Of a stretch of 35,011 bases of DNA, positions 19,422 to 33,398 are shown piece by piece. The translations under genes were made by a program, and so were the position numbers. The DNA comes from Blastococcus atacamensis (GTDB lineage Bacteria; Actinomycetota; Actinomycetes; Mycobacteriales; Geodermatophilaceae), in assembly GCF_002938425.1 (NCBI RefSeq), contig NZ_POQU01000036.1, positions 1-35,011 of the forward strand. Reading direction: 5' to 3'. The notes under the pieces are model-generated. The model was not told the DNA's origin and made no database searches. It saw nothing but the letters and a program-made list of their open reading frames with translations. Positions within the stretch are counted from its first letter, which is position 1; every line of letters begins with the position of its first letter.

Positions 19422-21881
19422 TCAGCGGGTGGCGGGGGTGCGGCCGGCGGCCAGCCGCACCGCGAGGTCGTCGATGGTGAGGTCGTGGGGGAGCGCCCGC
19501 CCGTGCAGCAGCTCGAGGCCGGCGGCGATGGCGCCGTCGCGCTGCTCGGCGGTGGAGATGCCGCCGGCGATGGAGACCAGCCCCACGGAGGCGCTGGTGC
19601 GGGCGATGGACGCCAGCACCGTGAGCGCGCGGTCGGTGTCGTCGCGGGTGGCCAGGTTCCCCACCTCGACCCGCAGCATGTCCAGCGGGACGCGGGCCAG
19701 CAGGGCCCAGATGCTGTGGCCCATGCCGTAGCCGTCGAGGCACAGCCGCACGCCGGTGCGCCGCACGGCCTCGAGCTCGGGAACCAGGGCGGCCGACGAG
19801 GTCATCAGGGTCTCCCCGGTGAAGGAGAGCACCAGCCGCGAGGGCTCCAGGCCTGCGTCCCCGAGCGACGAGGCGACCTCCCGGGCGAGCCCTTCGGCCA
19901 CGAACGCACGTGGCGGCAGGCTGACGGCGAGGGTCAGTGACGGGTCGTCGAGCGAGGCGATCTGCGCGCAGGCGTTGCGCAGCAGCCAGCCGTGCAGGGC
20001 CGAGGTCTGCCCGTACCACTCGGCGGCGGTCCAGAGCTCGAGGCCGCGGGCGATGCCGCGCACGGGGTGCTCGTACACCGCGGTGGCGTGCACCAGGTCG
20101 ATGCGGCCGTCGGGAGCGCAGGCGGCGTCGAGACGGACGCTGGTCGTGCCCTCGACCTGGGCGAGCTCCAGGGTGATCCCGCCGACGGCGAGGGTGCTCT
20201 CCTCCCGCGCGATGCGCACGCAGCCCTTGCCGGCGCGCTTGGCCTCGCGCAGGGCGGCGTCGGCGGCGCGGAAGGCGGCCTGGCCACCGATGGTGGCGAG
20301 GGTGGAGACGCCGACGCTGGCGCCCACGGCGAAGGTGTGCCCGCCGGCGTGGAACGGCAGCCTCATGACGTCGACGACGCGGGAGGCCACCTCCTCGCCG
20401 TCGGCCAGGGAGCCGTTGAGCAGGACGGCGAACTCGTCGCCGCCGAGGCGGGCGATCAGGTCGTCGTCGCGGACGACCGTCCGCAGCCGCCGGGCGACCT
20501 CGACCAGGAGCTGGTCGCCGACCTCGTGGCCGGACATGTCGTTGACGGCCTTGAAGCCATCGAGGTCGAGCACCAGCAGCACGCGGGAGGAGTCGGAGAC
20601 GGCGCCGAGCTCGCGGAAGAGCAGGACGCGGTTGGGCAGCCCGGTGAGGTGGTCGGTGTAGGCCATGCGCTCGAGCTCGCGCTCGCGCAGCCGACGGGTG
20701 GTGACGTCGCGCAGGTGGAGCACGCGGCGGCTGCCGCCGGGGCGCTCGGAGAAGGTGACCTCGAGCTCGCGCTCCTCGGCGCCCTCGACCGGGACCCGGA
20801 AGTGCAGCGCGCCGCCACCGGCGTGGGCGCGCACGGTCGCGCGGTCCTCGCGGACGACGAGTGAGAGCAGGGAGACCTCCTGCTCGGTCGCGCCGTCGAT
20901 CCCCAGGAGGTCGCGGGCGGCGGGGGAGGTGAACAGCAGCCGGAAGTGCGGATCGATGATCGCGAGGCCGTCGGAGCTGGACTCGATGAGCTCGCGGAAG
21001 TCCTCCTCGCTGCGCACCAGGTCCTGGGTGACCCGGCTGTCCTCGCGGATGCGCAGCACCAGACGGATCCCCATGAGCAGCAGGACGGCGGCGATGCCGA
21101 GCTCGGTACCGGTGCTGACCTCCTCGCCCCGGAGGACGCCGGCCACGAGGGCTGCGGGCACGCCGAGCACGGCGGCGACGACGAGCACCAGGCCCGCGAC
21201 GCTGATCCGCGGGGTGGAGGCGCGGGCGGTGCGCTCGGCCCCGGTCACCGGGGCGCGGGAGGCGGCGAGGCCGGCGCAGAGCAGGGCTCCGGCGACGGCG
21301 CCGTCGGAGAGCGCCGTCCAGGTCCAGGACGGGGAGACGATGGCCATGGCCTCGGCGCCGGCCGCCCCGGCCTGCAGCGAGATACCGACGAGCAGCGTGG
21401 TGGCCGAGCGGCGCATCGCCGTCGTCGACACGGTGCACAGGGCGCCGGCGCCGCCCAGCACCAGGGCGGCGTAGGCGCCGTAGGCGAGCACGAGCGAGCG
21501 GAGGTCGTCGGGGGCGTCCGCCGGGGTGACGAGCGGGGTGCGCAGCACTTCGGTGACCACGACGATCGAGGCGACGACGACCGCGCCGTCGACGGCGAGA
21601 GCGCTCCAGCGGGCGCGGATGACCCGCCGGGCGAGGCAGGCGCAGGTGATCAGCGGCGAGGTGGCGGCGAGCAACAGGACGACGTCGTCGACGCCGAAGC
21701 CGTCGAACCGGGGGCCGGGGAACGAGCCGGCCAGGAACTGGGCGACGGCGAAGCCCAGGGCGCCGATCGCCGGCGGCCACCAGGGGCCGGCGGCGGCCCG
21801 GTCCATGACGCGCGGCAGGCGCAGCAGGAGCACCGCGCAGCTGATGGCGACGCAGCCCAGGACGAGCTCGTCCCACTGCAT
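19422..21881 (-). CDS. Multipass membrane PAS-GGDEF-EAL protein; active-looking cyclase, degenerate EAL
   Basis: About nine transmembrane segments (residues 5-280) precede a PAS-like domain (about 295-395), a GGDEF domain (about 400-560) and an EAL-like domain (about 580-810). The cyclase is intact: LTGLPNR, LDLDGFKAVND, an inhibitory RDDD site five residues before RLGGDEF (480-484). In the EAL part the signature is YEH (603-605), the usual EITES reads FTGET and DDFGTG reads DGYGMG, so phosphodiesterase activity is unlikely. ATG 21881 is the first standard start. The upstream in-frame codons to 21977 encode another hydrophobic helix with only a CTG as possible start, so the gene may begin there and overlap its neighbour. 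Confidence 0.88.
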   Translation of the reverse strand: MQWDELVLGCVAISCAVLLLRLPRVMDRAAAGPWWPPAIGALGFAVAQFLAGSFPGPRFDGFGVDDVVLLLAATSPLITCACLARRVIRARWSALAVDGAVVVASIVVVTEVLRTPLVTPADAPDDLRSLVLAYGAYAALVLGGAGALCTVSTTAMRRSATTLLVGISLQAGAAGAEAMAIVSPSWTWTALSDGAVAGALLCAGLAASRAPVTGAERTARASTPRISVAGLVLVVAAVLGVPAALVAGVLRGEEVSTGTELGIAAVLLLMGIRLVLRIREDSRVTQDLVRSEEDFRELIESSSDGLAIIDPHFRLLFTSPAARDLLGIDGATEQEVSLLSLVVREDRATVRAHAGGGALHFRVPVEGAEERELEVTFSERPGGSRRVLHLRDVTTRRLRERELERMAYTDHLTGLPNRVLLFRELGAVSDSSRVLLVLDLDGFKAVNDMSGHEVGDQLLVEVARRLRTVVRDDDLIARLGGDEFAVLLNGSLADGEEVASRVVDVMRLPFHAGGHTFAVGASVGVSTLATIGGQAAFRAADAALREAKRAGKGCVRIAREESTLAVGGITLELAQVEGTTSVRLDAACAPDGRIDLVHATAVYEHPVRGIARGLELWTAAEWYGQTSALHGWLLRNACAQIASLDDPSLTLAVSLPPRAFVAEGLAREVASSLGDAGLEPSRLVLSFTGETLMTSSAALVPELEAVRRTGVRLCLDGYGMGHSIWALLARVPLDMLRVEVGNLATRDDTDRALTVLASIARTSASVGLVSIAGGISTAEQRDGAIAAGLELLHGRALPHDLTIDDLAVRLAAGRTPATR

Positions 21882-21969: not shown

Positions 21970-23865
21970 TCACGCAGGCACCTCGGGGGCGGCGGAGGCG
22001 ATGTCGGGAACGGTCCGCCACACGCCGGCGGCGAGCTGCTCGACCTCCAGCGGCCGGGAGAACGCGTAGCCCTGCACGTACCGGTGGCCCATGTCGCTCA
22101 TCAGCGCGAGCACGCCGGGGGTGGCGACGCCCTCGACGATGACCGGCAGGCCGAGGCTGGTGCCCAGCTGCAGGATCGCGCGGCACAGCGCCCGGCGCTG
22201 CGGATCCGTCTCGACGTCGGCGAGGAAGTGCTGGTCCATCTTGAGCAGGTCGACGGGCATGCCGACGAGGTAGGCCAGCGAGGAGAAGCCGGTGCCGAAG
22301 TCGTCGACGGCGATCCGCACGCCGAGCCCGCGCAGGGTCTCCAGATCCGCGGCGACGTGCTCGTCGAGCAGCATCGACTCGGTGATCTCCACGATCAGCC
22401 GGGAGGCGGCCAGCCGGCTGCTCTCCAGGGCGGCGACGACGTCGGAGACGAGCTCGCCGCTGCGGACCTGGCGGGCGGAGACGTTGACGGCGACGGACAG
22501 CTCGTCGTCGGTGGTGGCGACGGTGCCGCAGGCCTCGACGAGCACCCAGCGGCCGAGCTCGGTGATCAACGGCGACTCCTCGGCCAGGGGCACGAACTCC
22601 TGGGGGGAGACGTCGCCGAGCTCGGGGTGCCGCCAGCGCAGGAGTGCCTCCACCGACACGGTGCGGTGCAGGACGACGTCGACGACGGGCTGGAAGGCCA
22701 GCCGCAGCTCGCCGCGCTCGAGGGCGCCGGCGAGGTCGACGGCGAGGGTGCTGCGCCGGTCCTGGGCGTTGCGCAGGGCGTTGTCGTAGCGGTGCACGGA
22801 ACCGACGCCGGCGGTGCGGGCGCTGTAGAGGGCGATGTCGGCGCGGCGCAGGGCCTCGCCGGGGTCGATGTCGGGAGCCAGGCCGGTGACGCCGGCGGTG
22901 GCGGTGAGCGGGCCGGCCGGGGTGGCCAGGTAGCCGAGCGTGGTGATCAGCCGGGTGGCGACGACCTCGGCGTCGGAGACGGTGCCGTCGACCAGGACGA
23001 CGAAGTCGCTGTTCTTGCCGCGGGCCAGCCAATCCTCGCCGCGCAGTTCACGGGTGAGCCGGGCGGTGAGGACGCGGAGCACGGTCTCCTCGGTGCCGGG
23101 GCGGGCGGCCGCGGCGGCCAGGCCGTCGAGGGAGAGCAGGACCAGCGCCACCGGGGCGGTCGCCACCTGGCGTTGCACGGCGGCCAGCCGGCGGCTGAGC
23201 GCCGTCCGGTTGGGCAGGCCGGTGACGGGGTCGGTGAGGGAGAGCTCGAGCAGCTCGGGGTCGACGCCACGGCCGCGGGAGGTGACGTCGCGGCAGTGCA
23301 GGACGAGCGCGCCGGCGTCGGGGTCGGCGCGCAGGTCGCGGACGGTCGCCTGCACGAGGCGCCACTGCCCGTCGGCGGTGCGCACCCGGGCGGTGCGGAC
23401 GGCGAACTCGCCGTTCTCGCCGCGGGGGGCGTGCGTGCCGAAGAGGTTGCCGCGGTCGTCGGGGTGGATCGCCGGCTCGAGCGGGAGGCCGATCAGCTCG
23501 GCGGGCTCGTGGCCGAGCAGCGGCGCGATGCCCGGGGAGGCGAAGGTGACGCGCAGCCGCTGGTCGAGGATGACGACGGGGTCGACGCTGCTGCGCGCGA
23601 GCGTGCGGAACGCGGCCTGGCTGGCGCGAAGGTCGCTGCTCAGCCGGTGTGAACGGCGGCAGACGGCGGTGAGCGCCGCGGTGATCGAGACCAGGCCGAG
23701 CAGCGCGATCAGTGCCCGCAGCAGGGGGTGCCCGGGAAGGAACGGGGCGGCGACGGCGGCCAGCGCGATCCCGAAGGCGAGGACGGCGAGGAGCCCGGTG
23801 CGCCTCCGGTGAGGCGGAGCCGGGACTGCAGCCGCTGGCTGCCCCAGGTCGGGGGCGGTCGTCAC
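21970..23865 (-). CDS. Membrane PAS-GGDEF-EAL protein; degenerate GGDEF, intact phosphodiesterase
   Basis: From GTG 23865 the product is 631 residues; TTG 23901 is an alternative start. Two transmembrane helices (about 22-72) are followed by a PAS domain (RSSVDPVVILDQRLRVTF), a GGDEF-like domain whose signature is KNSDF (284-288), and a full EAL domain. The EAL part keeps every catalytic element: VEALLRW (406-408 EAL), NVSARQ, EITES, DDFGTGFSS, LKMDQ, VEGV and QGYAFSRPL. It should hydrolyse cyclic-di-GMP at the membrane, with the GGDEF part possibly a GTP or c-di-GMP sensor. It ends 88 nt before, or overlapping, the opposite-acting cyclase gene. Confidence 0.9.
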   Translation of the reverse strand: MTTAPDLGQPAAAVPAPPHRRRTGLLAVLAFGIALAAVAAPFLPGHPLLRALIALLGLVSITAALTAVCRRSHRLSSDLRASQAAFRTLARSSVDPVVILDQRLRVTFASPGIAPLLGHEPAELIGLPLEPAIHPDDRGNLFGTHAPRGENGEFAVRTARVRTADGQWRLVQATVRDLRADPDAGALVLHCRDVTSRGRGVDPELLELSLTDPVTGLPNRTALSRRLAAVQRQVATAPVALVLLSLDGLAAAAARPGTEETVLRVLTARLTRELRGEDWLARGKNSDFVVLVDGTVSDAEVVATRLITTLGYLATPAGPLTATAGVTGLAPDIDPGEALRRADIALYSARTAGVGSVHRYDNALRNAQDRRSTLAVDLAGALERGELRLAFQPVVDVVLHRTVSVEALLRWRHPELGDVSPQEFVPLAEESPLITELGRWVLVEACGTVATTDDELSVAVNVSARQVRSGELVSDVVAALESSRLAASRLIVEITESMLLDEHVAADLETLRGLGVRIAVDDFGTGFSSLAYLVGMPVDLLKMDQHFLADVETDPQRRALCRAILQLGTSLGLPVIVEGVATPGVLALMSDMGHRYVQGYAFSRPLEVEQLAAGVWRTVPDIASAAPEVPA

Positions 23866-24082
23866 ACGTTCGTTGTCGGGACGCGAGGACCGTTGCTGCA
23901 ATCGGCGTCATCGATCCGTCACCCGGAGGGGGGACCGTGCGATCCGCGGTTGCCGCCGAGCGGGCAGGTGCGGTCGGCGACACGGGGGACCCGCCGGAGG
24001 GCGCGACTCCGACTGCCCACTCGACCCTCCGGCTCCGGGACAGTCTGCCACTCCGCGCCACTGCGGAACGGCGTCGTCCGCG

Positions 24083-25454: not shown

Positions 25455-28400
25455 GTGAAGACCTGGCTCGATAGCTGGCCGGTGTACCGCCAGCTGACCG
25501 GCTCGGACCCGCTGGGGCGCGGCAAGGCCGCCCGCAGCAAGGGCACCGAGTCCGTCGTCTCGCGTACCGCTACCGCTGACCGCGTCGTCAAGAGCGTCTG
25601 CCCCTACTGCGCCGTCGGGTGCGGTCAGAAGGTGTACGTCCAGGACGAGAAGATCACGCAGATCGAGGGCGACCCCGATTCGCCGATCAGCCGCGGCCGG
25701 CTGTGCCCGAAGGGCAGCGCCAGCAAGCAGCTGGTCACCAGCCCCACCCGTGTCACCACGGTCAAGTACCGCCGTCCCTTCGGGACGGACTGGGAGGACC
25801 TGGACCTCGACACGGCGATGGAGATGATCGCCGACCGCGTCCTCGAGGCCCGCCGCAAGGGCTGGCAGCAGGTCGACGGCGGCAAGCGGGTCAACCGCAC
25901 CATGGGCATCGCCAGCCTCGGAGGGGCCACCCTCGACAACGAGGAGAACTACCTCATGAAGAAGCTGTACAGCGCGATGGGCGCTGTGCAGATCGAGAAC
26001 CAGGCCCGGATATAGCACTCCGCGACGGTGCCCGGTCTGGGTGCCTCGTTCGGTCGTGGCGGTGCCACGAACTTCCTGGAAGACCTCGCGAACTCCGACT
26101 GCATCGTCATCGAGGGTTCGAACATGGCCGAGTGCCACCCGGTGGGCTTCCAGTGGGTGGGTGAGGCCAAGGCCCGCGGCGCGAAGATCATCCACATCGA
26201 TCCGCGCTTCACGCGGACCAGCGCGATCGCCGACCTGCACGTGCCGCTGCGCATCGGCACGGACATCGCTTTCCTCGGCGGACTGATCAACTACGTGCTG
26301 AGCAACGACCTTTACTTCAAGGAGTACGTCACCGCCTACACGAACGCCGCCGCGCTCGTGGGGGAGGAGTACGTCGACTCCGAGGACCTCGACGGCCTCT
26401 TCTCCGGCTTCGACGCCGAGAACCGGCAGTACGACGAGGCGACCTGGCAGTACGAGCCGGAGGAGCCGCCGGACTCGGGCTCCGACAGCCCGGGCGAGGC
26501 CGCCGAGCAGAAGCGCACCGACCAGAACCCCGACGTGAAGAGCGCGGACCGCGCGCAGGCAGCCGGCAGCGGCGGACCACCGATCGCGTCGAAGCCGAAG
26601 CGCGACGAGACGCTGCAGGACCCGCGAACGGTCTTCCAGATCCTCAAGCGGCACTACGCCCGGTACACGCCGGAGATGGTGGCCGAGGTCTGCGGCATCG
26701 AGCCTGCGGTGTTCGAGCAGGTCGCGAAGTGGGTCACCGAGAACAGCAACCGCGACCGGACGACGGCGTGGGTGTACTCGGTGGGCTGGACGCAGCACAG
26801 CGTCGGCGCGCAGTACATCCGCACCTGCTCGATCCTGCAGACGCTGCTGGGCAACATCGGCCGCCCCGGCGGCGGGATCCTCGCGCTCCGCGGGCACGCC
26901 AGCATCCAGGGCTCGACCGACATCCCGACGCTGTTCAACCTGCTGCCCGGCTACCTGCCGATGCCGCACGCCCGGCAGCACGGAACGCTCGAGGACTACG
27001 TGGCCGACGCCGCGGGCAAGGCCGGGTTCTGGGGCAACAAGCGGGCGTACATGGTCAGCCTGCTCAAGGCCTGGTGGGGGGAGCACGCGACGGCGGAGAA
27101 CGACTTCGCCTTCGACTACCTGCCCAAGATCAACGGCGACCACAGCTCCTACCGGACGATCGCCGACATGATCGAGGGCAAGGTCTCGGGCTACTTCCTC
27201 GTCGGCGAGAACCCGACCGTGGGGCACCCGAACGGCCGGATGAACCGCTTCGGCCTGGCCAACCTCGACTGGCTCGTCGTCCGCGACCTGCAGATGATCG
27301 AGTCGGCCACGTTCTGGAAGGAGTCGCCGGAGATCGAGACCGGCGAACTGGCGCCGGAGACGATCGCCACCGAGGTCTTCTTCATGCCCGCGGCCACGCA
27401 CGTGGAGAAGGAAGGCACCTTCACCCAGACGCAGCGGGTGCTGCAGTGGCGGCACAAGGCCGTCGAGCCGCCGAACGACGCGCGCAGCGACCTGTGGTTC
27501 TTCTTCCACCTGGGCCGGATCCTCCGGGAGCGGCTCAAGGACTCCACCGACCCGCGTGACCGCCCGCTGCTCGACCTCACCTGGGACTACCCGGTCGAGG
27601 GCGAGACGGCCGACCCCAGCGCCGCCGCCGTGCTGCGCGAGATCAACGGCTTCGGCCCCGACGGCACGCTCCTGAACTCCTACATGCAGATGAAGGACGA
27701 CGGGTCGACCAGCGGTGGCTGCTGGATCTACTGCGGCGTCTACGCCGACGGCGTCAACCAGTCGGCCCGGCGCAAGCCTGGCAAGGAGCAGGGCCCGGTC
27801 GCCTCGGAGTGGGGCTGGGCCTGGCCGCTGAACCGCCGGATGCTCTACAACCGCGCCTCGGCCGACCCCGACGGCAAGCCGTGGAGCGAGCGGAAGAAGT
27901 ACGTCTACTGGGACGAGGAAGCCGGCGAGTGGACCGGCGCCGACGTCCCGGACTTCGAGAAGAACAAGCGGCCGGACTACGTGCCGCCGGAGGGTGCGAA
28001 GGCGCAGGACGCGCTGGCCGGCAACGACCCGTTCGTCATGCAGGGCGACGGCAAGGCGTGGCTGTTCGCGCCCGCCGGCGTCGTCGACGGTCCGCTGCCG
28101 ACGCACTACGAGCCGGTGGAGTCGGTGGTCGAGAACCCGCTGTACAAGCAGCAGGCGAACCCGACCGTCGAACGCATCCCCGGCCCGTGGAATCGGGAGA
28201 ACCCCTCGATGAGCGAGGTCTTCCCGTTCCAGGTGACCACCTACCGGCTCACCGAGCACCACACCGCCGGTGGGATGAGCCGCACGCTGCCCTACCTCTC
28301 GGAGCTCCAGCCGGAGTTCTTCGTCGAGGTCAGCCCGGAGCTGGCGGAGCTGCGCGGGCTGACCCACGGCGACTTCGCCACGCTGGTCAGCGCCCGCACG

Positions 28401-28748
28401 GCGATCGAGGCCAAGGTGCTGGTCACCGAGCGGGTTCGGCCGATCCGGCTCCGCGGCGGGCAGGTCGTGCACCAGATCGGCATGCCCTACCACTGGTCCT
28501 ACAGCGGCATCTCCACCGGCGACTCGGCCAACGACCTGCTGGGCATCGCACTCGACCCGAACACCCACATCCAGGAGGACAAGGTCAGCACCGCCGACAT
28601 CGTCCCCGGGCGTCGCCCGCGGGGGCCGGCGCTGATCGACTTCGTGGAGGAGTACCGCAGGCGGGCCGGCGTGGACTCGGGCCGGGTGGGGACCAACGGC
28701 CGCGACCCGGTCGGCGCCGACGCCGGAGAGGGCTCGACGATCTCATGA
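25455..28748 (+). CDS. fdhA: Formate dehydrogenase catalytic subunit, selenocysteine encoded by in-frame UAG
   Basis: Read through TAG 26013-26015, this is a 1097-residue FdnG/FdoG-type molybdopterin enzyme with Sec187. A [4Fe-4S] site CPYCAVGC plus LCPKG (Cys49, 52, 56, 84) precedes QARI-Sec-HSATV, which aligns with E. coli FdnG QARV-Sec-HGPTV. It is followed by FGRGGATN, HPVGFQWVGEAK, IDPRFTRT and GWTQHSVGAQ, in one frame and family order to the end. It oxidises formate to CO2 (or the reverse) at Mo-bis-MGD. No twin-arginine signal is present, so it should face the cytoplasm. An acidic, low-complexity insert lies at about residues 334-380. GTG 25455 is used; GTG 25446 is an alternative. A standard caller would split it into 25455-26015 and 26028-28748. 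Confidence 0.9.
26013..26045 (+). promoter_or_regulatory. UAG selenocysteine codon with SECIS-like hairpin
   Basis: TAG (26013-26015) is followed after exactly 18 nt by the loop GGTCT (26034-26038). The E. coli fdhF SECIS has the same 18-nt spacing and the same GGUCU loop. The loop is closed by a 7-bp stem, GGTGCCC (26027-26033) with GGGTGCC (26039-26045), containing two G-U pairs. A clear bulged U like that of fdhF is not seen; U26029 sits in a U-G pair. It would recruit SelB to decode UAG with a CUA-anticodon tRNA-Sec. Confidence 0.85.
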
Positions 28749-28773: not shown

Positions 28774-29847
28774 GTGACCTCGGTCAGTTCAGCCAGTCCG
28801 GGCCTCGGTGGCCTCCGTGACGTCAAGAACCGGCTGTTCGGGCCGCTGCCCGACGTCGCGGAGGAGGCCGGCTACGAGCCCGACCACCCCAAGCGGGTCG
28901 GCTTCTTCACCGACACCTCGGTCTGCATCGGCTGCAAGGCCTGCGAGGTGGCGTGCAAGGAGTGGAACACGCTCCCGATGGACGACTCGCACGGCCTGAA
29001 GGACGCCCTCGGCGACATCTCTGGGATGTCCTACGACAACACCGGTCAGCTGGGTGCGAACTCCTGGCGGCACGTGGCGTTCATCGAACAGTCCCGCGCG
29101 GTCGACCTGCCCATGCCGACCTTCGGCCGGCCCGGCGACGACCGGCACGACTCCGGCCCCTCGCCGGCGACGGCGGGCGACGACGTCAGCCTGGCGAACG
29201 CGCAGCAGAGCAGCGTGCTGAACGCCGAGGCGCTCAGCGAGTTCGATCCGCAGACCGGGCAGACCGGCGCGGACAAGCAGATCCGCTGGCTGATGTCCTC
29301 CGACGTCTGCAAGCACTGCACGCACGCCGGCTGCCTCGACGTCTGCCCGACCGGTGCGCTGTTCCGCACCGAGTTCGGCACCGTCGTCGTGCAGGGCGAC
29401 ATCTGCAACGGCTGCGGCTACTGCGTGGCGGCGTGCCCCTACGGCGTCATCGACCAGCGCAAGGACGACGGCCGGGTCTTCAAGTGCACGATGTGCTATG
29501 ACCGGCTGACCGACGGGCTGCAGCCGGCGTGCGCGAGCGCGTGCCCGACCCAGTCGATCCAGTTCGGCGACCTCGACGAGCTGCAGGAGCGGGCCGACGC
29601 CCGTCTGGCGACGCTCAAGGCGCAGGGCGTGGAGACCGCCCGGCTCTACGGCCGCGACGAGAACGACGGCGTCGGCGGAGACGGGGCATTCTTCCTGCTC
29701 CTCGACGAGCCGGAGGTCTACGGCCTGCCGCCGGACCCGGTCGTGACGACGCGGGACCTGCCGGCGATGTGGAAGGCGGCCGGCAAGGCCGCGGTGATGA
29801 TGATCGGGGTCGCGGTCACGGCCGTCCTCGGTTCGCGGAGGCGCTGA
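28774..29847 (+). CDS. fdhB: Formate dehydrogenase iron-sulfur subunit
   Basis: The 357-residue protein starts at GTG 28774 after a GGGAGGG ribosome site. Four ferredoxin-type Cys groups are visible: CIGCKACEVAC (51-61), CKHCTHAGCLDVC, CNGCGYCVAAC and CTMCYDR with CASACPTQS, as in FdnH. The C terminus has a single hydrophobic helix (AAVMMIGVAVTAVLG) ending in Arg-rich residues, also like FdnH, which would tether it to the membrane subunit. A Gly/Ser/Asp-rich insert at about 120-165 is longer than usual. It carries electrons from the Mo/Sec subunit to the membrane protein. Confidence 0.92.
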   Translation: MTSVSSASPGLGGLRDVKNRLFGPLPDVAEEAGYEPDHPKRVGFFTDTSVCIGCKACEVACKEWNTLPMDDSHGLKDALGDISGMSYDNTGQLGANSWRHVAFIEQSRAVDLPMPTFGRPGDDRHDSGPSPATAGDDVSLANAQQSSVLNAEALSEFDPQTGQTGADKQIRWLMSSDVCKHCTHAGCLDVCPTGALFRTEFGTVVVQGDICNGCGYCVAACPYGVIDQRKDDGRVFKCTMCYDRLTDGLQPACASACPTQSIQFGDLDELQERADARLATLKAQGVETARLYGRDENDGVGGDGAFFLLLDEPEVYGLPPDPVVTTRDLPAMWKAAGKAAVMMIGVAVTAVLGSRRR

Positions 29848-29848
29848 C

Positions 29849-30889
29849 ATGACCGGCGGTATCACCAGCCCCGGGGCCGGGTGGCGCCAGGCCGACGGCG
29901 GCCCGGCGACGCAGCGGACGGGGAAGAAGCGCCGTCGCGGTGGCGGTCGCGGCCGCGGCGAGGTCGCCATGGTCGACGACGTCGAGTTCACCTCGTACTA
30001 CGGCCGGCAGATCGTCAAGACGCCGGTGTGGAAGTCGCCGGACGTGCCGCTCTACCTGTTCCTGGGTGGCGCGGCCGGGTCCTCGTCGATCCTCGCCGCG
30101 ATCGCGGACCTGACCGACCGGCCGAAGCTGACCCGCGTCAGCCGGTACACCGCCGGGGTGGGCGCGATCCTCTCGGTGGTCGCGCTGGTGCACGACCTCG
30201 GGCGGCCCGAGCGGTTCCTGCACATGCTGCGGGTGCTCAAGCCGACGTCCCCGCTGTCGGTGGGCACCTACATCCTGTCGCCGTTCAGTGCGGCCGCGGG
30301 AGCGACGGCGGCGGTGGAGCTGCTGGGCTGGTTCCCCCGGCTCAAGCGCTTCGGGGGAGTGGTGTCGGCGATCTTCGGCGGACCGCTGGCCACCTACACC
30401 GGCGTGCTGCTGGCCAACACCGCGGTTCCGTCGTGGCACGCGGCCTACAAGCAGTTGCCCTACGTCTTCGGTGCGTCGGGGATGGCTGCCGGCGGCGGCA
30501 TCTCGATGATCTTCGTGCCGGTCGACGAGGCCGGCCCGGCGCGCAAGATGGCGGTCGCGGGAGCGGCGATCGAGCTCGCCGTGGTGCACAAGGTCGAGAA
30601 CGACCACGGAATCGTCAGCGAGCCGTTCCACGAGGGCCGGCCGGGAAAGCTGATGCAGGCGGCGAAGACGTGCACCGCCGCGGGCGCCGGACTCACCGTC
30701 GTCGCCGGGCGCACCCGGCTCGGCGCGATTGCGTCAGGAACGCTTCTCGCGGCCGGATCGCTGCTCACCCGGTTCGGCGTCTTCGAGGCCGGCATCGCGA
30801 GCACCAAGGACCCGAAGTACGTCGTGATCCCGCAGCGCGAGCGCCTCGCCGCCGGCACCAACGAGCACGCCTCCACGATCACCCGCTGA
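29849..30889 (+). CDS. NrfD-like membrane subunit of formate dehydrogenase
   Basis: The ATG at 29849 is 1 nt after the Fe-S subunit stop, giving 346 residues. ATG 29969 with GAGG upstream is an alternative that removes a very basic 40-residue leader. The rest has about eight hydrophobic helices, with HDLGRPERFLHMLRVLKPTSP and SVGTYILSPF, hallmarks of NrfD/PsrC-type quinone-interacting membrane proteins. It replaces the cytochrome b FdnI of E. coli: no heme-binding His pattern is apparent. It should pass electrons to menaquinone. This is the last gene of the operon and is followed by a bidirectional-type palindrome. Confidence 0.88.
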   Translation: MTGGITSPGAGWRQADGGPATQRTGKKRRRGGGRGRGEVAMVDDVEFTSYYGRQIVKTPVWKSPDVPLYLFLGGAAGSSSILAAIADLTDRPKLTRVSRYTAGVGAILSVVALVHDLGRPERFLHMLRVLKPTSPLSVGTYILSPFSAAAGATAAVELLGWFPRLKRFGGVVSAIFGGPLATYTGVLLANTAVPSWHAAYKQLPYVFGASGMAAGGGISMIFVPVDEAGPARKMAVAGAAIELAVVHKVENDHGIVSEPFHEGRPGKLMQAAKTCTAAGAGLTVVAGRTRLGAIASGTLLAAGSLLTRFGVFEAGIASTKDPKYVVIPQRERLAAGTNEHASTITR

Positions 30890-32996: not shown

Positions 32997-33398
32997 TCAC
33001 ACGTCGGCGTCGAGAAGGAGGGCGACGTCGTCGTGCAACACGGCGAGCGCTCGGTCGAGGGTGGCCAACCGCCCGCCGCGGAACCGGGCCAGCCCGGCGA
33101 GGTAGGCGTCGGTGACCTGCTTGTGTCCCACGACTCCCCGCATGTCGATGTCGTCGTAGCCGAGGTCGTCCGGCCAGAAGTCGTGCGCCACCGCGGTGCG
33201 TAGCCCGCGGACGACATCGACGGCGTCGCGCGCAGTGGCGCCGCTCCGGAGGAGGAAGCGGACGAGTGCCCCCTGGGTGAGGGGGCAGGTGGCGAAGGGC
33301 TCCGACCGCCGGGACAGCCAGCTCTCCGCGAGGTCGTGGTGCACGTGGTCGGTCACCGTGACGGCGATGAGCACGTTGGCGTCGAGCAGAACCGTCAC
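32997..33398 (-). CDS. vapC: VapC-type PIN-domain toxin
   Basis: The 133-residue PIN protein starts LLDANVLIA with the first metal Asp6. Glu25 (in HDLAESWL), Asp97 (in QVTDAYL) and Asp115 (in LATLDRAL) give the remaining acidic site of a magnesium-dependent ribonuclease. Its GTG overlaps the antitoxin stop (GTGA), the usual antitoxin-first order. VapC toxins cleave specific RNAs such as tRNA when the antitoxin is degraded; the target here is unknown. Confidence 0.9.
   Translation of the reverse strand: MTVLLDANVLIAVTVTDHVHHDLAESWLSRRSEPFATCPLTQGALVRFLLRSGATARDAVDVVRGLRTAVAHDFWPDDLGYDDIDMRGVVGHKQVTDAYLAGLARFRGGRLATLDRALAVLHDDVALLLDADV

Follow-up and report, generated by a model that had tools for sequence, protein, structure and literature searches.

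Can a gene for the catalytic subunit of a formate dehydrogenase (FDH) that is interrupted by an in-frame TAG encode a full-length selenoenzyme? The window analyzed here, i.e. the whole 35,011-nucleotide stretch from Blastococcus atacamensis, raises this question through the following features:

25455-28748, + strand: FDH catalytic subunit (NCBIfam NF041513; Pfam Molybdopterin, Molybdop_Fe4S4 and Molydop_binding)
26013-26015, + strand: in-frame TAG, the proposed selenocysteine (Sec) codon, from direct reading and from the site codon in relatives
28774-29847, + strand: 4Fe-4S subunit, FDH-beta-like (TIGR01582, 181.2 bits, below the cut-off of 334.7; Fer4_11 above its cut-off)
29849-30889, + strand: NrfD-like membrane subunit (PF14589 and PF03916 above cut-off)

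A catalytic subunit followed by 4Fe-4S and NrfD-like membrane subunits is a usual gene order for such enzymes. By direct reading, the fdh frame extends from GTG at 25455 to a terminal TGA at 28746-28748, and its sole internal stop is the TAG, which corresponds to residue 187 of 1097 codons, lies in the protein context ENQARI-*-HSATVPG and is followed by 910 codons. Against NF041513 (cut-off 1400), the protein predicted by read-through reaches 1927.2 bits and covers profile positions 2-1067 of 1067. The genome contains one full copy of fdh; four other matches are partial, 28-40% identical and score 18 to 103 bits. Elsewhere in the window, two neighboring genes (19422-21881 and 21970-23901, both - strand) match diguanylate cyclase/phosphodiesterase families, the first with GGDEF and EAL domains in Pfam, and a VapC-like PIN-domain protein (TIGR00028, PF01850) is encoded at 32997-33398 (- strand).

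Relatives of the gene were obtained from one scan of genome contigs, from which the best 80 of 535 were retained. The first-pass annotation had claimed that the TAG is the only break in fdh and that it lies at the Sec site; both points hold up, and among these best 80 of 535 relatives the codon at the same place is TAG in 69 (L009-L077) and TGA in 11 (L078-L088). The occurrence of this TAG at an identical position in 69 relatives from this set means that it is due neither to chance nor to a sequencing error; the latter explanation, which these 69 loci from other assemblies refute, has a negligible probability. We also considered a pseudogene or the independent translation of two fragments, the second of which could be a 906-codon ORF beginning at GTG 26028, immediately 3' of the TAG. 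This is very unlikely, as the same stop is kept in an otherwise open frame in all 69 TAG relatives. The terminal stop of fdh is TGA in 68 of these 69 loci and TAG in one (L046). Two fdh copies were found in each of the genomes G060 (L070/L077) and G037 (L047/L076), and all four have TAG.

The first-pass annotation had read the UAG as Sec and had proposed to search the source genome for a tRNA-Sec with anticodon CUA and for selA, selB and selD. All four are present and adjacent, supporting that reading. Specifically, a tRNA-Sec gene at positions 15986-16077 of contig C95 (assembly G000) scores 65.8 bits against RF01852 (cut-off 47), matches the tRNA-Sec model across all 91 positions and has the anticodon cta according to ARAGORN, and it adjoins selA (TIGR00474, 425.4 bits), selD (TIGR00476, 388.4 bits) and selB (TIGR00475, 269.6 bits; cut-off 242.25). 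One further match in this assembly exceeds the tRNA-Sec cut-off (51.6 bits); it corresponds to the tRNA-Ser(tga) gene located in the window. ARAGORN nevertheless labels the CUA tRNA as tRNA-Pyl owing to its anticodon, which would make the UAG a pyrrolysine codon. We regard this alternative as extremely improbable, given that the tRNA exceeds the tRNA-Sec cut-off over its full length, that its neighbors are sel genes, and that relatives have UGA at the site or, in one case, Cys. Based on these sequence comparisons, we conclude that the UAG in the fdh gene of the window is very probably read as Sec at residue 187. By eye, the D stem of CUA tRNA-Sec genes (L001, L191 and others) seems to have an internal mismatch that is absent from UCA genes.

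Codon and anticodon agree throughout the relatives. In a tRNA-Sec search of 76 genomes (E 1e-11 or 1e-9), which cover the 80 loci except L021 and L045, a CUA tRNA-Sec was present in 65 of 65 TAG genomes, or 66 of 66 with the genome of the window, and a UCA tRNA-Sec in 11 of 11 TGA genomes. One TAG genome, that of Geodermatophilus LHW52908, has an extra UCA tRNA-Sec beside the CUA one. Two different CUA tRNA-Sec genes (L126, L151) were observed in the metagenome-assembled genome (MAG) G043. The names of the TAG loci are those of the Geodermatophilaceae or its genera except for L012 and L039 among the 69, and the 11 TGA loci are labeled Pseudonocardiaceae, Nocardioidaceae and Actinopolymorphaceae. 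In a protein tree of 88 rows, all TAG rows form one clade with a support of 99, so that a single change is needed; this tree was calculated by a quick method with a midpoint root for drawing and, in the part with the distant TGA rows, includes long branches. L012 and L039 (a Frankiales MAG) are placed inside the TAG clade. The L012 contig, which carries the unverified label Bacillus sp. AZ43, groups within Blastococcus, and this label is likely wrong. The concordance of codon and anticodon together with the single TAG clade suggests that both changed together and that the code apparently changed once, in an ancestor of the fdh-bearing Geodermatophilaceae.

Downstream of the Sec codon, we identified an element that may direct its recoding:

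26027-26045, + strand: putative bacterial SECIS hairpin with a 7-bp stem and a GGUCU loop, from covariation and consensus fold

Counted from the first base of the Sec codon, the 19-nt hairpin begins at a distance of 14 nt, and it is common to TAG and TGA fdh genes. In 39 of 81 rows, hand-picked for variety and 36 of them distinct, 249 of 252 cells (98.8%) are paired and three pairs are changed on both sides, while versions of the hairpin slid along the alignment are only 29-62% paired. None of 500 shuffles reached the observed value on any of five measures, although related sequences can beat shuffles without any structure. Folded as a single sequence, the hairpin of the window has an ordinary energy (z -1.08). 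In the Cys homologue L219, the stem is lost as judged by eye. The covariation of the hairpin also argues against a pseudogene and against two separately translated pieces.

The codon immediately 5' of the Sec codon is likewise conserved:

26010-26012, + strand: ATA codon before Sec, found in 70 of 70 TAG rows

With the window included, ATA precedes the Sec codon in all 70 TAG rows and ATT in all 11 TGA rows, and not one of the 81 rows has ATC. Crude ORFs of the TAG loci contain 16 ATA among 5742 Ile codons, and those of the TGA loci 16 ATT among 755. We rejected a one-to-one rule linking ATA to TAG and ATT to TGA, as ATA precedes the Sec codon in two of the distant TGA genes (L222, L223) and ATT in four. 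More likely, the rule concerns an A or U immediately 5' of the Sec codon, and this would also fit the TAT that precedes the TGA in locus L190 (see below). A single inherited change would account for the A of ATA; its retention despite the high GC content of these genomes suggests that the recoding context is under selection.

To what extent is the UAG shared by the family and the phylum? Among 112 genomes of the family, including that of the window, 100 have an fdh match at a threshold of E 1e-150, and by table count at least one match spans residue 187 in 98 of them. Each such match in these 98 genomes contains TAG and four also contain TGA, where the table gives the number of stops rather than their position and the DNA was read for some of the matches. 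TGA beside TAG in G084, G099, G104 and G183 was considered as a second Sec site and rejected: in the DNA (L192-L195) it is the terminal stop, 902-913 codons 3' of the TAG. The only fdh matches in G109 and G155 start after residue 187. In G155, both copies (L196, L197) appear to be missing the stretch that carries the Sec codon and the hairpin, as judged from the translations and, for L197, from the DNA of the junction, and this seems to be either a real loss or an assembly artefact. The 12 genomes without an fdh match include every genome of genera g5, g6 and g7, the assemblies of which comprise 190-550 contigs. Among 396 genomes of the phylum (own genome included), 104 have an fdh match, and the genome of the window alone has a TAG-only match covering residue 187. 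Five matches covering this residue in four genomes hold TAG and at least one TGA according to the number of stops, and the matches in G225, G427 and G548 contain no stop. The site codon in the seven phylum loci that were read (L218-L224) is TGA in six and TGC in one (G225).

Elsewhere in these genomes, UAG seems still to be a stop rather than reassigned: of 495 crude ORFs from the TAG loci, 75 terminate at TAG, compared with 17 of 59 for the TGA group, counts that come from a crude ORF caller and a small TGA-group sample. For these same reasons we do not conclude that TAG is rarer as a stop in the TAG group. A search for UGSC-motif proteins gave no match in the genome of the window, and the control genomes gave none either, so that this negative result is uninformative.

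In our working model, the CUA tRNA-Sec would be charged with serine by SerRS, SelA would convert Ser to Sec on the tRNA using selenophosphate from SelD, and SelB would deliver the Sec-tRNA to the UAG preceding the hairpin, where insertion would compete with release factor 1. These roles of SerRS, SelA, SelD and SelB are those of the established bacterial Sec pathway; in the present system, we infer these enzymatic steps as well as Sec insertion and the competition with release factor 1. The transition itself would have consisted of a matched change of the codon from TGA to TAG and of the anticodon from UCA to CUA with the hairpin kept. The UGA-Sec FDHs of other Actinomycetota (L078-L088) are the same enzyme with the same GGUCU-loop hairpin, and the 3' portion of the tRNA, comprising T arm and acceptor strand, is near-identical by eye, whereas the codon is TGA, the anticodon UCA, and the codon before Sec ATT rather than ATA.

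Geodermatophilus sp. LHW52908 (L057; listed as G. marinus; genome G047) may use a second Sec codon. Because contig, coordinates and score of its formate dehydrogenase are identical in G047 and G134, we took these to be one genome; G134 is 100% complete and 1% contaminated. The site codon of its fdh is TAG, and contig C11 (L191) carries a CUA tRNA-Sec together with selA, selB and a selD-like gene. Contig C17 (L190) carries the additional UCA tRNA-Sec (81.8 bits) next to an interrupted ORF:

L190:1169-2157 (G134/G047, contig C17): UCA tRNA-Sec and TGA-interrupted AhpD-like ORF in an IS-rich, lower-GC stretch

The AhpD-like ORF lies ~315 bp from the tRNA gene, has 192 codons with a single in-frame TGA in the motif CFY-*-MESH and terminates at TGA. 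It scores 112.6 bits against TIGR01926 (peroxidase-related; cut-off 81.8). Like the AhpD-related (seleno)proteins of NF041238 (CFYUT), it would contain CFYU with UGA, but at 51.8 bits it is below the cut-off of 175 for that family and meets TIGR01926 instead. The TGA site corresponds to the second Cys of a CxxC motif in 19 of 19 aligned homologues, which are loci returned from other family genomes (72 other genomes had a match). No close copy of the ORF was found in other family genomes, the next match being 40% identical and without the stop, and no relatives of the protein were found in plasmids (E 1e-20) or viral contigs. A hairpin that would suit a SECIS by its position, starting 13 nt from the first base of this TGA, has an ordinary energy (z -0.44 and -0.64). 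Also near the UCA tRNA-Sec, a JAB-domain protein (PF14464) is encoded at L190:2476-2916 (- strand).

The composition of contig C17 (69 kb) changes along its length. In 3 kb steps, GC is 0.62-0.73 in the first 18 kb and 0.71-0.79 in the rest, and the tetranucleotide correlation with two other stretches of LHW52908 is 0.89 for the first 5 kb, 0.96 up to 15 kb and 0.97-0.99 beyond, in a blunt test that also gives 0.98 for a Modestobacter locus. Domains of transposases were found at 6-15 kb, and further ones are visible by eye at the left end. An 8 kb piece past 20 kb is 71-92% identical to several separate places in G129 of the same genus, with a longest match of 3.1 kb at 85%. Thus, C17 looks native and the stretch with the UCA tRNA-Sec looks acquired; a misassembly at the transposases is conceivable. 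We tentatively suggest, as a possibility somewhat short of even, that LHW52908 reads both UAG and UGA as Sec. In this scenario, the CUA tRNA-Sec, selA, selB, selD and the UAG formate dehydrogenase would be the ancestral part, and a horizontally acquired cassette of UCA tRNA-Sec and UGA-containing AhpD-like peroxidase would borrow the resident SelA, SelB and SelD.

UAG-encoded Sec has reportedly been confirmed by experiment in Geodermatophilus and Blastococcus by Mukai et al. in 2016. With that system the window shares the family, the CUA tRNA-Sec and the UAG at the Sec site of FDH; different here are the genome, the wider family count (98 of 112) and the placement in one clade. PMC5330540 attributes the discovery to Mukai et al. 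2016, records three CUA tRNA-Sec genes among the genomes it surveyed, each from Geodermatophilaceae, refers to previously reported UAG formate dehydrogenases and UGSC-motif selenoproteins of this family and adds an AhpC with Sec-TAG from Blastococcus saxobsidens DD2. The UAG-Sec of the Geodermatophilaceae is, therefore, already known and the window is another case, as the first-pass annotation had correctly anticipated in stating that it is not the first example. Neither Geodermatophilus nor Blastococcus is named in the excerpts of PMC7609411, PMC6267555, PMC10778597, PMC13188914, PMC5424206 and PMC8318568. A family-wide count, the ATA rule and two Sec codons per genome were absent from the titles and abstract openings among the matches listed, which include few subscription journals and are weak evidence of absence.

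A change of Sec codon that is held family-wide with hairpin and machinery retained implies that codon and anticodon can change while the rest stays. Annotation with standard stops may truncate such enzymes, and ARAGORN labels the tRNA as tRNA-Pyl. The conserved rare ATA provides a testable context rule. LHW52908 offers a case in which the coexistence of two Sec codes within a cell can be tested; if the suggested double reading is true, two Sec codons would operate in one organism, and a lineage that left UGA could regain it.
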